Below, piece after piece: positions 4,371 through 32,695 of a DNA stretch of 44,725 nucleotides. Origin of the DNA: a virus; IMG/VR virus record IMGVR_UViG_3300035099_000078, positions 1-44,725 of that record; one strand, written 5' to 3'. The notes under the pieces were generated by a model. That model was not told the DNA's origin. It searched no databases and saw only the letters and a program-made list of their open reading frames with translations. Numbering within the stretch: position 1 is the first letter of the stretch; every line of letters starts with the position of its first letter. Made by a program: the position numbers and the translations under genes.

Positions 4371-5176
4371 TGGAAATTAGCGGTAAGATAAAACAGTCAT
4401 TTGATATTATATCTTCGGAATACGTTCCAGGGAAATCAGTTGTATTATGCAGTTTTGGAAAAGATTCAATGGTATTGCTTGATCTTGTAATGAAAAAATA
4501 TGGCGATATACCCATTGGACATTATAGTCTTCCAGGATATCCCAAAAAGAAAGAGTTTGCATTGAAGTTTATCCAAAAACTTAACCTTGTGGTTCACAAT
4601 ATACCGATAATGGCAATGGATATATTCATGGACAGCAACGGCAAGTTTGAACTTATGGTGTTCCTGCCGATTTCAAAAGACAAGTGCCTTATGCCATGTG
4701 TTGACATTATAGATACCAGAGAAAAGAACTGCATTTTTGACTTATTGGCCGGTCCGTTCTATTCCAATACGGTTAGTCCATGGACCGTATTCTTTGTAGG
4801 CCACAAGCAAAGCGATGTTGATTCATTCTTTGGGCCAGTTCCAATCAGTAAGGATAGGAAGCTGGTTGGTGACATTAAAATCTGTTACCCGCTTAAAGAT
4901 TGGACCGATGAGGATATATGGCAATATACAATCGAAAATGGCATACCGTATAATGACAAATGCTATAACAAGGACAACAATTTCCTGCCGTTTGAGGACA
5001 CAACATACAATCCGCATTATTATTCTGCCTGCACGGATTGCATAAATCCCAACAAACCCAAAGAAGTATATTGTAGAATAGCAAGTAGAAAGATACCGAA
5101 CAAGAGATTCGGGGATATGGACTATTATCCCCAAAAACATTCTTTTTACAGGACTATTCTCAATCAAATTCTTTAG
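4370..5176 (+). CDS. PAPS-reductase-family (PP-loop) protein
   Basis: The 268-residue protein has the PP-loop SFGKDS at residues 28-33 (variant of SGGxDS), followed by a helix, the pattern of adenylyl-sulfate/PAPS reductase-like and related nucleotide-alpha-hydrolases. A late segment (CYPLKDWTDEDIWQYTIENG) matches the family's 'P-l-x-x-W-t-d-x-D-V-w-x-Y' block. A cysteine pair, CTDC, follows near residue 222. The family reduces PAPS or activates substrates through adenylation; phage copies are common but rarely characterised. The start overlaps the upstream stop (TAATG). Its AT-rich codons differ from neighbouring virion genes, suggesting a transferred moron. Confidence 0.8.
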   Translation: MEISGKIKQSFDIISSEYVPGKSVVLCSFGKDSMVLLDLVMKKYGDIPIGHYSLPGYPKKKEFALKFIQKLNLVVHNIPIMAMDIFMDSNGKFELMVFLPISKDKCLMPCVDIIDTREKNCIFDLLAGPFYSNTVSPWTVFFVGHKQSDVDSFFGPVPISKDRKLVGDIKICYPLKDWTDEDIWQYTIENGIPYNDKCYNKDNNFLPFEDTTYNPHYYSACTDCINPNKPKEVYCRIASRKIPNKRFGDMDYYPQKHSFYRTILNQIL

Positions 5177-5188
5177 ACAGGAGGACAT

Positions 5189-7087
5189 ATGCCCGTTACT
5201 TATATTCCAAGAGGAAAGACAACAGCGGAAACCTATGCTGAAGAACAGGAAAGACTTTTAAACAATATTCTGCGGATACTCAGTATGGCTCAGTTGGGCG
5301 AGGAAATACGACAAAAACAAGCCTTGGGTGAACAGAAAAAATATGCCGAGGCATACAAGGCTGCTACGGCCGAAGGTCCAGAGAAGGCTGCTACAGAAGG
5401 TACAGTAACTATGCCACAGCTTTTGGGAGCCGAACAGGCATACGGTGTTAAGCTTACCCAGCCAGTACCAGGAACAATGACATTTCAGGGATACAGCCCG
5501 GAACTTGCTGCCCAGGGATTTCCAACCGAGCAACCTTATACCATCCCAACTGCCGGTATGAGAGTTCCCGGTGGACTTCTGAGTCCCCAGACTGGCGGTA
5601 TTACTCCAACCTACCAGCCTCCGGCTCCCGAAGAAGGCCTATTTGCCAGGGCAATAAGGGGGATAACCGGTGCTCCTGCTCCGGCACCACCTGCGGAGAT
5701 TATGCCAAGACCGGCGACACCGAAGGAACAGGCAATCCAGGCACAACAGGAATACTTACGGCAATATGCAACGGGTCAATTGGGATTAATCAATAGATAT
5801 GGCCCTGAGCAAATTGCCGCATGGAAAGAGGGAGTAGAACTGCCTCCGGCAAAGAAAGAAGAAGCGCAAATGCGCCAGGGTGCTGAGATTGCCAAGTGGC
5901 AATTCGAGCAAAAGCAACGGCAAGCTGATGCTTTGGATAGGACAAAAGCAAGATTTAAATTCAACTTAGGAACAAAATTTGGGAAGACGGATGAAAAAGG
6001 AAACATAAGACCTCTCACTTCAGAAGAAACTGATTACTATGCCAATATGTTTGCTTTTGGCGGGGCACAACCAGAAGATTTAACTGAAGATTCAGCTCCT
6101 AATCTAGGATTGATTCCGCTTTCTAAACCAAGAGTGGCTGATCAGAAGATGGAACTAGCTAATGAATTTGCCGATTATTATGGGAAAAAGATTTCTGAGC
6201 TTCCCAAAGATTTAGCAAAGAAAAGAGGACCAGCAGAAGCAGTCGGCGCTATTAAAATTGGTCCCGATGATGTAGTTCATGGACCAAGTTGGACTTATGC
6301 AGAAGAAAAGGGCTTTGCGACAAAAGAAGAGGCCATGCAGCATGCATTACAAATGTATAAGATGATTCCGGATAAAGACAAAGCTGCGGTTATTCCTTCT
6401 GTAGAGCTTGGAGCTGGCAATAAATATATTCCCAAACTAATTCCGGATATTACGCAGAGGATACCGGCATCCGTTCCAACTGCTACACCAGGGATTTCCT
6501 ATGACAGAAGGAAAGAAGCTTGGGTTGAGACGCTTCCAGATGGTACAAAGAGGAGATTATCTTCCCAGGAAGTGCGGGAGACTAAACTTGACTTTTTAGA
6601 ATCCCAACCTACATCCGATATCAGAACAATGCAACAGGCGACTCCTTCGGTGTTGGAGTTGGTAAAAAAATCCAGGGAAAATCTGGTTGCGGCTGAAAAA
6701 AAATATGGAGTCGGACCATTGCAAAGCAGATGGAGAGATTTTTGGTCGGGGAAGATTGGAGCTGCCGACCCCGAGTTTAGGGCGTTAAAAACAACCATGG
6801 GGCTCTTAACCACAAGATTGATGAGAATGCATGTCGGGGCGAGGGGTGGAGAATATATGATGAAGCATTTCGGAGACATGCTTGCAACGGCAAAGGATCA
6901 TCCAGACAACTTAAGAGCAGTATTAGATGAAATTGAGAATTATGCAAAAGAAATCAGGGATACCCGGATTCCAAAAGCAGTGATGTCTCCAGAGGGCAAA
7001 CCGACTTCCTCACAAAAGAAACCAGGAATCAAAAAGATCATTGTCTATGACAGCAAAGGTAATCGCATAGAAGAAAGGGAAGAATAA
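5189..7087 (+). CDS. Large internal virion / ejection protein, 632 aa
   Basis: The protein has a helical N-terminus (TTAETYAEEQERLLNNILRI), a long proline- and glutamine-rich low-complexity section up to about residue 200, then mixed charged helices. I see no catalytic motif. Large, helical, low-complexity proteins after the nozzle gene are typical of podovirus pilot/ejection proteins, which are injected ahead of the DNA. A strong site, AGGAGG, precedes ATG 5189. It is coupled to the next gene by TAATG. Function is inferred from position and composition only. Confidence 0.5.
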   Translation: MPVTYIPRGKTTAETYAEEQERLLNNILRILSMAQLGEEIRQKQALGEQKKYAEAYKAATAEGPEKAATEGTVTMPQLLGAEQAYGVKLTQPVPGTMTFQGYSPELAAQGFPTEQPYTIPTAGMRVPGGLLSPQTGGITPTYQPPAPEEGLFARAIRGITGAPAPAPPAEIMPRPATPKEQAIQAQQEYLRQYATGQLGLINRYGPEQIAAWKEGVELPPAKKEEAQMRQGAEIAKWQFEQKQRQADALDRTKARFKFNLGTKFGKTDEKGNIRPLTSEETDYYANMFAFGGAQPEDLTEDSAPNLGLIPLSKPRVADQKMELANEFADYYGKKISELPKDLAKKRGPAEAVGAIKIGPDDVVHGPSWTYAEEKGFATKEEAMQHALQMYKMIPDKDKAAVIPSVELGAGNKYIPKLIPDITQRIPASVPTATPGISYDRRKEAWVETLPDGTKRRLSSQEVRETKLDFLESQPTSDIRTMQQATPSVLELVKKSRENLVAAEKKYGVGPLQSRWRDFWSGKIGAADPEFRALKTTMGLLTTRLMRMHVGARGGEYMMKHFGDMLATAKDHPDNLRAVLDEIENYAKEIRDTRIPKAVMSPEGKPTSSQKKPGIKKIIVYDSKGNRIEEREE

Positions 7088-30674: not shown

Positions 30675-31586
30675 ATGCCTACTACAAGAACAGCGAACCT
30701 TTCAGCCTTGTTGTATCCGGGGCTGCACAAGGTGTTTTTCAACGAATACAAAGGAATCCTCACCAAGACGGAATACGACAAGATATTCAATATCGAGACT
30801 TCCACTCAAAACTACGAGAAGGTTTATGAAATGACCATGTTGGGTGGCAGCATTCCTGAAGTTGGTGAGGGAGAACAGATCACCTACGTCGACCCTGTTG
30901 GTGGCAATACCGTAACGTTTACCCATAAGAAATGGGGACGTGGGTTTGCAATCACCGAGGAAGCGTACGAAGATGATCTGTATCGTACTATTGGGCCCAA
31001 TGCTACCAAGGCGCTTGCCAAGGCATCTTCCAACACTATCGAAGTCCAGGCGGCAAGCGTGCTGAACAATGCTACTAGCACGACCTACTATACTGGATTC
31101 GATAGCAAGGCTCTTGCTAGCACGTCGCATACGGTGCTATTCACTGGTGGAACCTATGCCAATCGTCCAGCAACCCTTGGCGCTCTTGGAATTACCACTC
31201 TTCAGGCAGCAGTTCTCAGGATCGAGAAATGCCCCGACCAGGATGGGGTGATTGCCGGCCTTCGGGCTAAGCTTATCGTCATTCCTCCTGATCTACGGTT
31301 CCTCGCCCATGAACTTCTGAAGAGCGAATACAAGCCCTTCAGTGCAAACAACGAGGTCAACGCTCTTGCTTCAGAGGGACTCAGCTACTTCGTTAGCCAT
31401 TATCTCTCCAGCACAACCTTCTGGTGTGTACTGGCTGACAAGCACAACCTGAAATTCTTCTGGAGACGCAAACCAAGATTCGATCCCAGCGACGACTTCG
31501 CTACTGGGAATGCGCTGTTTAAGGTGACACAACGCCATATTCAAGGCTTCGGAGATTGGAGAGGTTTCGATCTCGGCAACACATAA
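30675..31586 (+). CDS. Major capsid protein
   Basis: The 303-residue protein shows features of the HK97/Mu-gpT-type major head subunit: an N-terminal segment (LLYPGLHKVFFNEY), the E-loop-like strand SIPEVGEGEQITYVDPVGG, the conserved GRGFAITEEAYEDDLY spine helix, and an A-domain end (IVIPPDLRFLAHELLKSEY). No N-terminal delta domain to be cleaved is obvious. AAGGAGG precedes the ATG. It is the last gene before the HNH insertion. Confidence 0.9.
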   Translation: MPTTRTANLSALLYPGLHKVFFNEYKGILTKTEYDKIFNIETSTQNYEKVYEMTMLGGSIPEVGEGEQITYVDPVGGNTVTFTHKKWGRGFAITEEAYEDDLYRTIGPNATKALAKASSNTIEVQAASVLNNATSTTYYTGFDSKALASTSHTVLFTGGTYANRPATLGALGITTLQAAVLRIEKCPDQDGVIAGLRAKLIVIPPDLRFLAHELLKSEYKPFSANNEVNALASEGLSYFVSHYLSSTTFWCVLADKHNLKFFWRRKPRFDPSDDFATGNALFKVTQRHIQGFGDWRGFDLGNT

Positions 31587-31589
31587 TTC

Positions 31590-31636
31590 AATAATTTCAA
31601 TAGGTTAGGATAGTATTTCCAGTCTATGAAATTATT
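31590..31636. other. Inverted repeat downstream of the capsid gene
   Basis: AATAATTTCA (31590-31599) and TGAAATTATT (31627-31636) are exact reverse complements; TAG/CTA extends the stem after a bulge. The stem is AU-rich and has no U-run, so it is weak as a terminator. It borders the HNH promoter. Confidence 0.5.
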
Positions 31637-31638
31637 AC

Positions 31639-31667
31639 TTGACACCTCCCTCGGTGCAGGTTATAAT
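31639..31667 (+). promoter_or_regulatory. Perfect consensus promoter of the HNH gene
   Basis: TTGACA (31639-31644), a 17-base spacer, and TATAAT (31662-31667) match the sigma70 consensus at all twelve positions. The expected transcript start is near 31674, downstream of the first arm of the hairpin that covers the gene's ribosome binding site. Confidence 0.9.
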
Positions 31668-31692
31668 GATTGTAACTATACTGAGGGAGGTG
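31643..31692 (+). promoter_or_regulatory. SD-sequestering inverted repeat
   Basis: CACCTCCCTC (31643-31652) is the exact reverse complement of GAGGGAGGTG (31683-31692), and four more pairs including two G-U extend the stem inward. The second arm contains the GGGAGG ribosome binding site of the ATG at 31697. RNA started upstream would fold it away; RNA from the internal promoter lacks the first arm. Confidence 0.75.
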
Positions 31693-31696
31693 CAAA

Positions 31697-32413
31697 ATGG
31701 AATTCCAGAAGAAGTGTGAAGTATGTTTGACTGATTTTGTAACTGACAATCCACTGAAACGAGCCTGTTCAACCGAGTGTTCCTTTGCATTGCGTTATCA
31801 AAAGGTGCGGGAATGGAAGCAAAGGAAGAAAGAGGAAAAAGAGAAAGAACGCAAGGTTTGTGTTCAGTGCGGTAGGGAATATAAGCCCAATATTTATACT
31901 CCCCACCAAAAGTATTGTTCTTTGGAATGTCGAATAAAGGCAAGATTACCAAAAGATACAGGTTATCCAAGAGAGGCACAATGTGCATACTGCGGTAAGC
32001 CAATCGTTGTTACCCAGGAGCATCCGCACAGGAAATATTGTGGAGTTAGATGTCAGCATCGAGCCAATGTTAACAACTACAATAGAAAGAATGCTAAACA
32101 GCGTGGAGTATTTGCCAAAAAAAGCAGGTGGAACGGCAATTGGTTTTCGGCTTTAGAGCGGGATGGCTATAAATGCAGATTGTGCGGAGCTGATGATAGA
32201 AGGTCTTTGGAAGTGCATCACTTGGACAATAGAAATTGGACTGCTGATTACAAAGATGCCAATCATGACTTGGATAATCTTATGACACTTTGTAAGACTT
32301 GCCATAAGAAGTTTCATACAATCGTGTATGAGATGATTGATGGCAAATTCTATGTATCTGGTTTGGCTATAGACTTTTTGAAGCCAAAGCAAATTTTCAT
32401 TAAGGAGGTATAA
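31697..32413 (+). CDS. HNH endonuclease with N-terminal zinc fingers
   Basis: The 238-residue protein has three Cys-pair zinc modules (CEVC..CSTEC; CVQC..CSLEC; CAYC..CGVRC) and then an HNH domain: CRLCG, LEVHHLDN, HDLDNLMTLC and CHKKFH. The His-His pair, the Asn of DLDNL and the last His form the catalytic site, with a structural zinc in the C-x-x-C pairs. It interrupts the capsid region, has its own promoter, and uses more AT-rich codons, all typical of a free-standing homing endonuclease. It cuts DNA, probably in the same region of phages that lack it. Confidence 0.85.
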   Translation: MEFQKKCEVCLTDFVTDNPLKRACSTECSFALRYQKVREWKQRKKEEKEKERKVCVQCGREYKPNIYTPHQKYCSLECRIKARLPKDTGYPREAQCAYCGKPIVVTQEHPHRKYCGVRCQHRANVNNYNRKNAKQRGVFAKKSRWNGNWFSALERDGYKCRLCGADDRRSLEVHHLDNRNWTADYKDANHDLDNLMTLCKTCHKKFHTIVYEMIDGKFYVSGLAIDFLKPKQIFIKEV

Positions 32414-32414
32414 C

Positions 32415-32651
32415 ATGGCTCAGTACACAGCAGAGAGCTCAGGAAACAAGTTCCTGATTAAGGATTCTGCCGGTAATCCTATCTTTGGCGTAGACTTTGT
32501 GGGTGAAGGGGGAACTACCTCGTTTCCAGTCTTGATTATGGATGTTAGCGGGGTTAGTTACTATTACTGGCCCAACAGTTCCGGTGTTCTCAGGTATGGG
32601 ACAACGGAGCCTACTACGTCTACCCAGGATACGGCTGGTAGTGCGGTTTAA
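32415..32651 (+). CDS. Small beta-rich virion-region protein, 78 aa
   Basis: The product is polar and beta-rich (KFLIKDSAGNPIFGVDFVG; SYYYWPNSSGVLRYG), without charge clusters or membrane segments. The middle 'D-S-A-G-N-P-I-F-G-V' resembles short structural proteins placed after capsid genes. AAGGAGG lies upstream, at the end of the HNH gene. Before the HNH insertion it would have followed the capsid gene. A head-completion or decoration role is possible. Confidence 0.6.
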   Translation: MAQYTAESSGNKFLIKDSAGNPIFGVDFVGEGGTTSFPVLIMDVSGVSYYYWPNSSGVLRYGTTEPTTSTQDTAGSAV

Positions 32652-32658
32652 CTATAAC

Positions 32659-32695
32659 AGAGGGATAGATTCTTCTATCCCTCTATCTTCTTGGG
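32659..32695 (+). terminator. Rho-independent terminator candidate
   Basis: AGAGGGATAGA (32659-32669) and TCTATCCCTCT (32674-32684) form a perfect 11-bp stem with loop TTCT, followed by a mixed U/C tract (ATCTTCTT). It probably ends or attenuates the capsid transcript ahead of the glycosyltransferase genes. Confidence 0.65.

Follow-up and report, generated by a model that had tools for sequence, protein, structure and literature searches.

How can a selfish gene sit beside the phage genes that are transcribed most heavily and do the phage no harm? This open question is raised by a 44,725-nt stretch of viral DNA (hereafter, the window), in which an HNH endonuclease gene follows the gene for the major capsid protein (MCP). 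The HNH gene (positions 31697–32413, plus strand) encodes a protein of 238 aa that matched Pfam HNH (2e-7) and phrog_1271 (2e-31), and its HNH and zinc residues, i.e., the invariant C/H/N columns, were intact. The MCP gene (30675–31586, plus strand; Phage_capsid_4, 3e-17; phrog_371), which would be the source of read-through RNA, ends upstream of it, and a portal protein was also encoded in the window. No terminator-like site was listed on the plus strand between the MCP and HNH genes. Downstream, the HNH gene is followed by a small gene (32415–32651, plus strand) and then by a hairpin that appears in the list of terminator-like sites (32659–32684, plus strand). The HNH stop codon lies beyond the Shine-Dalgarno sequence of this small gene and 1 nt before its ATG (32399–32415); HNH translation crosses the ribosome site of the next gene, and therefore the two genes may be coupled.

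The HNH gene is preceded by a promoter nested in an inverted repeat. The −35 element TTGACA (31639–31644) and the −10 element TATAAT (31662–31667), both on the plus strand and separated by a 17-nt spacer, each matched the consensus at 6/6 positions. This internal promoter thus matched 12/12 positions of the sigma-70 consensus and would not be of the phage late or middle type. The exact pattern TTGACA-N16-18-TATAAT had a single match in the whole 44.7-kb window, at 31639–31667, and was present in 6/100 shuffles, so that the promoter by itself is moderately surprising at most. From the promoter position, transcription would start at 31674 on the plus strand, 7 nt past the −10 element.

The 5′ arm of the hairpin (31643–31656, plus strand) takes in the final two positions of the −35 element plus 12 bases of the spacer and lies upstream of the putative transcription start. 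The 3′ arm (31679–31692, plus strand), recognized from both the inverted repeat and the fold, holds the Shine-Dalgarno sequence GGGAGG (31685–31690, plus strand), all bases of which were paired in the read-through fold. The two arms form 14 pairs including two G-U pairs, with a perfect 10-bp repeat in which CACCTCCCTC (31643–31652) pairs with GAGGGAGGTG (31683–31692). Folding added a 3-bp clamp and an upper 8-bp stem and loop, which is built from the −10 region in the read-through RNA (31659–31677, plus strand). The window contains four perfect repeats of at least 10 bp with a loop of 3–60 nt, compared with a mean of 2.2 (maximum 6) in 20 Markov resamples; such repeats are near chance, and the unusual aspect of this one is its placement. 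The hairpin is not terminator-like: it has no U run, CAAAATGG comes next, and it was absent from the list of terminator-like sites. Rfam covariance models gave no match at the gathering score anywhere in the window. A preliminary description of this DNA had already placed the promoter, the arms, the Shine-Dalgarno sequence, and the HNH start at these positions, with one arm across the −35 end and the spacer, and the sequence bore this out.

The same description had called for folding of the two transcripts, one that continues from the capsid gene and one that starts at the internal promoter. The 65-nt stretch that spans the hairpin folded at −33.2 kcal/mol (z −8.3), and none of 200 shuffles folded as well (0/200). 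When the 32 gene starts of the window were ranked by pairing of the Shine-Dalgarno sequence with upstream sequence, the HNH start took rank 1. In RNA beginning at 31674 or 31672 the hairpin was absent, and z rose to +1.0 and +1.7, respectively, which is less structured than the shuffle mean. According to the models, 22.8–23.9 kcal/mol would be needed to open the start site in the capsid read-through RNA and 5.2–5.4 kcal/mol in the promoter-started RNA; the latter value was insensitive to placing the start 5–9 nt past the −10 element (five positions tried). Because the MCP stop codon is 110 nt upstream of the HNH start, the stem would not be opened by ribosomes that terminate there. The fold and the opening energies therefore agree with the proposal that the ribosome site would be hidden in capsid read-through RNA, and the folding likewise agrees with the proposal that RNA from the promoter, taken to start at 31674, would stay open.

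On this basis, we consider it probable that the hairpin acts as a shield against read-through, with HNH translation confined to its own RNA. In the proposed mechanism, the insert would be a homing-type HNH gene that brings along a transcription start of its own together with a lock on translation. A polymerase coming from the capsid gene would copy both arms, and their pairing on emergence would bury the Shine-Dalgarno sequence; because the paired arms would hide this sequence, little HNH would be made from the abundant capsid messages. RNA from the internal host-type promoter would lack the 5′ arm, remain open, and be translated. With the read-through RNA locked and its own RNA open, the HNH gene could thus tolerate a heavily transcribed region without overexpression, and early expression would be possible, its level depending on the internal promoter. 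The promoter type alone suggests that HNH is expressed early and is silent in late capsid read-through. Promoter use, the transcription start, capsid read-through, the blockage of translation, early timing, and homing activity are steps that we infer. The claim of the preliminary description that HNH is synthesized only from its own promoter is supported by the anatomy and folding energies given above as well as by the empty sites and the recurrence described below, and the word "only" is one that we infer.

Fourteen stretches matched the window, and three of them encode relatives of its MCP (L012, L013, and L014; 97%, 89%, and 93% identical, the last up to an interruption). The HNH gene, promoter, and hairpin were found at this place in 0/3 of these relatives. 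The small gene that now lies downstream of the HNH gene directly follows the MCP gene in L012 and L013, with gaps of ~40 nt and ~73 nt, respectively, and a different small gene begins ~61 nt after the MCP gene in L014. Because the three MCP relatives lack all three components, the promoter, hairpin, and HNH gene together constitute an insertion, approximately at 31637–32392 (plus strand), with ends good to a few bases. Another hairpin with a 10-bp perfect repeat (31590–31636, plus strand) follows the MCP gene outside this segment and probably predates the insertion. Hairpins of other sequence also follow the MCP stop codon in L013 (4930–4966) and L014 (5558–5592), and none does so in L012; these post-MCP hairpins of changing sequence may have a role in mRNA stability or processing.

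In L014, an insert with a LAGLIDADG ORF (4660–5320; LAGLIDADG_1, 3.5e-7) splits the MCP gene after approximately codon 223. It is probably an intron, and Rfam gave no match to it at the gathering score. Thus, two kinds of homing element occur in one capsid region of near relatives. As for close relatives of the HNH protein that could provide covariation, the viral search gave matches of no more than 33–34% over the HNH domain and the phage DNA search gave none; direct covariation for the window stem is absent, as these searches provided no near homologue of the HNH gene whose hairpin could be aligned.

The recurrence of this arrangement was investigated in other phages. A viral scan for TTGACACCTCC...TATAAT...GGAGG returned two stretches. 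One (L016, also L064) lies in front of an HNH gene that belongs to a different family. The other (L017, 1145–1215) contains a terminator-like hairpin whose 3′ arm lies over the −35 element of a consensus promoter, followed by a 58-aa ORF and thyX. When the search was broadened to every exact promoter with GGAGG and ATG downstream, it returned at least 120 stretches with at least 122 promoter-gene pairs; two HNH genes were noticed among the pairs listed (L147 and L168), and the pairing of their starts with pre-start RNA was 0.65 and 0.60, respectively. Searches with HNH alignments and with named phages yielded 190 loci with 124 distinct HNH ORFs. A start was scored as hidden when the start site paired to at least 0.45 with the RNA that precedes the transcription start. 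L064, which had been found by complementarity, was left out of all HNH-versus-other tests, and L015–L017 and L022–L063 were left out of the promoter-stratified controls. HNH-like proteins (by motif) were also removed from the controls, as were sequence duplicates, and HNH starts with a Shine-Dalgarno run below 4 were left out of the start-site tests (63/124 in one).

Promoters matching 11–12 of 12 positions were found inside hairpins in L066, L093, and L096. Where the promoter scored at least 10.7 of 12, starts were hidden in 5/6 HNH genes versus 27/164 controls (MWU p 8e-4, Fisher p 9e-4). There was no effect with weaker promoters (1/7 HNH versus 11/64 controls), and for all promoters together the counts were 6/13 and 38/228 (Fisher p 0.017). 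A rule that HNH genes hide their start sites regardless of promoter was rejected (13/59 versus 27/151, p 0.31), and its extension to weak or extended −10 promoters was unsupported; L071, which had looked like a case by eye, scored 0.00. Replication in prokaryote genomes was mixed to negative. In this sample, 45 loci had no ORF by the rule, 28 had no Shine-Dalgarno sequence, 27 had no promoter, and eight were scored; L393 (0.50) and L436 (0.66) reached 0.45 and six fell below it. The promoters of L393 and L436 matched 9/12 positions and were under the promoter cut-off of the promoter-stratified test, and 0/4 HNH genes that passed the rule of that test in this sample were hidden. L375 from a prokaryote genome is a counter-example, with a promoter of 11/12 and a pairing of 0.19.

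Two observations from the same material concern other settings. In Enterococcus phage Sw5 (L274, 740–840), an HNH gene lies between ribonucleotide reductase genes and its Shine-Dalgarno sequence pairs with CTCTTTC ~40 nt upstream (pairing 0.83, fold z −1.8), which is reminiscent of Aeh1 mobE. Consensus promoters in start-hiding hairpins also precede non-HNH phage genes for lipoprotein-like and small proteins (L179, L184, L207, L192, and L060). A start-hiding promoter hairpin may likewise be of use to further autonomous genes that are exposed to read-through.

A link to capsid genes emerged from the neighbours of the HNH genes. In L066, L093, L096, and L081, an HNH gene with a promoter inside a hairpin lies 51–69 nt downstream of an MCP gene (fold z −4.4, −4.6, −6.3, and −4.8, respectively). 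The MCPs of L066 and L093 are 35% and 33% identical to that of the window, and the MCP of L096 belongs to another family (phrog_1328, no BLAST similarity). The upstream ORFs of 103/124 HNH genes were compared with four capsid queries and 20 of these with PHROGs, which added L081, L092, and L108 to the MCP-linked HNH genes; L092 and L108 are without the arrangement. L081 was counted once the Shine-Dalgarno requirement had been lifted: its start codon, without a Shine-Dalgarno sequence, is part of the 3′ arm and faces the spacer and the −10 element, and its modelled native starts were offset ~3 nt too far downstream. The arrangement was present in 4/6 HNH genes found behind an MCP gene versus 2/117 others (L083 and L355; p 2e-5), an exploratory comparison with the neighbours classified in part; before L108 joined the capsid-linked group, the counts were 4/5 and 2/118. 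The recurrence statistics in general are exploratory, as the criterion was shaped during inspection, the numbers are small, and the loci came from related queries.

In the window, L093, and L096 it is chiefly the Shine-Dalgarno sequence that is paired, and in L066 and L081 chiefly the start codon. Given this variation and the lack of relationship among the stem sequences, it is the pairing that is kept and not the sequence. In a poorly resolved tree of the HNH proteins, the capsid-linked ones did not form one clade, and the capsid link required six changes compared with a shuffled mean of 6.8 (86/500 shuffles as low), which is compatible with a repeated as well as with a single origin of capsid-linked HNH genes. 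We put forward, tentatively and as a possibility, that HNH genes directly behind MCP genes repeatedly evolved, from unrelated sequences, a hairpin around a host-type promoter in which the start codon or Shine-Dalgarno sequence is concealed from capsid read-through, giving early-on and late-off expression, the reverse of T4.

Other functions of the hairpin were weighed against the read-through shield. RNase III can use a stem of ~22 paired bases. The hairpin reaches this length through two stacked stems, and its main role might lie in RNA processing or stability: RNase III or another nuclease would cut the stem in read-through RNA, split the capsid and HNH messages, and could even free the Shine-Dalgarno sequence; a second hairpin directly upstream and the hairpins after the MCP genes in L013 and L014 fit such a role. 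Processing alone, however, needs no 3′ arm that coincides with the Shine-Dalgarno sequence or start codon, and this coincidence was seen in 5/5 capsid-linked cases despite differing sequence and stem length, so that we regard this explanation as unlikely. We have still less confidence in the palindrome as a DNA operator, to which the HNH protein or a phage repressor would bind over the promoter for autoregulation. The 24 nt between the arms would be atypical of a dimer site, other loci conserve pairing rather than sequence, and the Shine-Dalgarno sequence already explains the right arm, although the left arm overlaps the −35 element and I-TevI, a homing endonuclease, represses its own late promoter according to PMC2988022.

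It also seems very improbable that a good Shine-Dalgarno sequence (GGGAGGTG) met a pyrimidine-rich spacer by coincidence, producing a fold without a role. Chance does provide about two perfect 10-bp repeats per such window, the viral scan for CACCTCC...TATAAT...GGAGGTG returned 42 stretches, near a rough chance estimate of 45, and the strong-promoter controls include 27/164 genes with hidden starts; yet coincidence would leave unexplained the z of −8.3, the rank of 1/32 among starts, and the recurrence behind capsid genes. Our guess is that several of the 42 CACCTCC...GGAGGTG stretches originated from the Shine-Dalgarno sequence of a divergent gene. Such an origin was rejected for the left arm in the window, where the upstream gene runs in the same direction.

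If the translational lock is true, it would answer the question of how selfish genes can lie beside the most transcribed phage genes without harming the phage, and early rather than late homing is predicted for such elements. The promoter-in-hairpin lock would also be a compact insulation part that can be tested. With its recurrence behind the capsid genes of distant phages, what began as one odd hairpin becomes a hypothesis that viral databases at large can be used to check.

Finally, we compared the locus with known systems. In IS10 and IS50, a host sigma-70 promoter lies inside an inverted repeat, and only RNA started outside hides the transposase ribosome site. These are transposase genes with element ends, whereas the window gene encodes HNH and no transposase. 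Among phages, hairpins hide the ribosome sites of the homing endonuclease genes T4 I-TevI, I-TevII, I-TevIII, and segB and Aeh1 mobE, as described in PMC2988022. For I-TevI and segB, PMC2988022 and PMC3014915 describe an upstream-started RNA that hides the ribosome site and an internal promoter that frees it. In our models, opening the start site cost 12.2 kcal/mol for I-TevI and 15.4 kcal/mol for segB, compared with 3.5–4.6 kcal/mol for four other T4 starts. By sequence and fold, the AATAAATA/CATAAATA stretch, presumed to be the late promoter, falls in the 5′ arm of both genes. An arm shared between promoter and hairpin, which the preliminary description had regarded as a compact design worth testing, is consequently not new.

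The window gene resembles the T4 and Aeh1 genes in that a homing endonuclease with a hidden ribosome site is embedded in another transcription unit and that an internal promoter inside the hairpin gives RNA without the 5′ arm. In T4, the promoters are phage late promoters, so that the gene is silent in early RNA and is translated from late RNA, whereas the window has a consensus host-type promoter behind a capsid gene; its stem is also stronger (about 23 versus 12–15 kcal/mol). The likeness to T-even phages that had been proposed therefore holds for the principle, i.e., the hidden ribosome site and the internal promoter, but not for the timing, which would be reversed if the sequence is a true guide to the behaviour of this phage. 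For the T4 late genes e (lysozyme) and soc, PMC3014915 describes a long early RNA that hides the start and, for e, late promoters within the 5′ part that give open RNA; these differ from the window in being non-selfish genes with phage late promoters. A further type is represented by seg43(25) of Aeromonas phage 25, where, according to PMC2988022, a strong hairpin at the homing endonuclease start is upstream of the ribosome site rather than covering it; L266 resembles this type. Searches of an open-access library turned up no report of a phage HNH gene with a host promoter in this role, nor of the capsid link. The principle itself is known, and what is new here is its version with a host-type sigma-70 promoter together with its recurrence.
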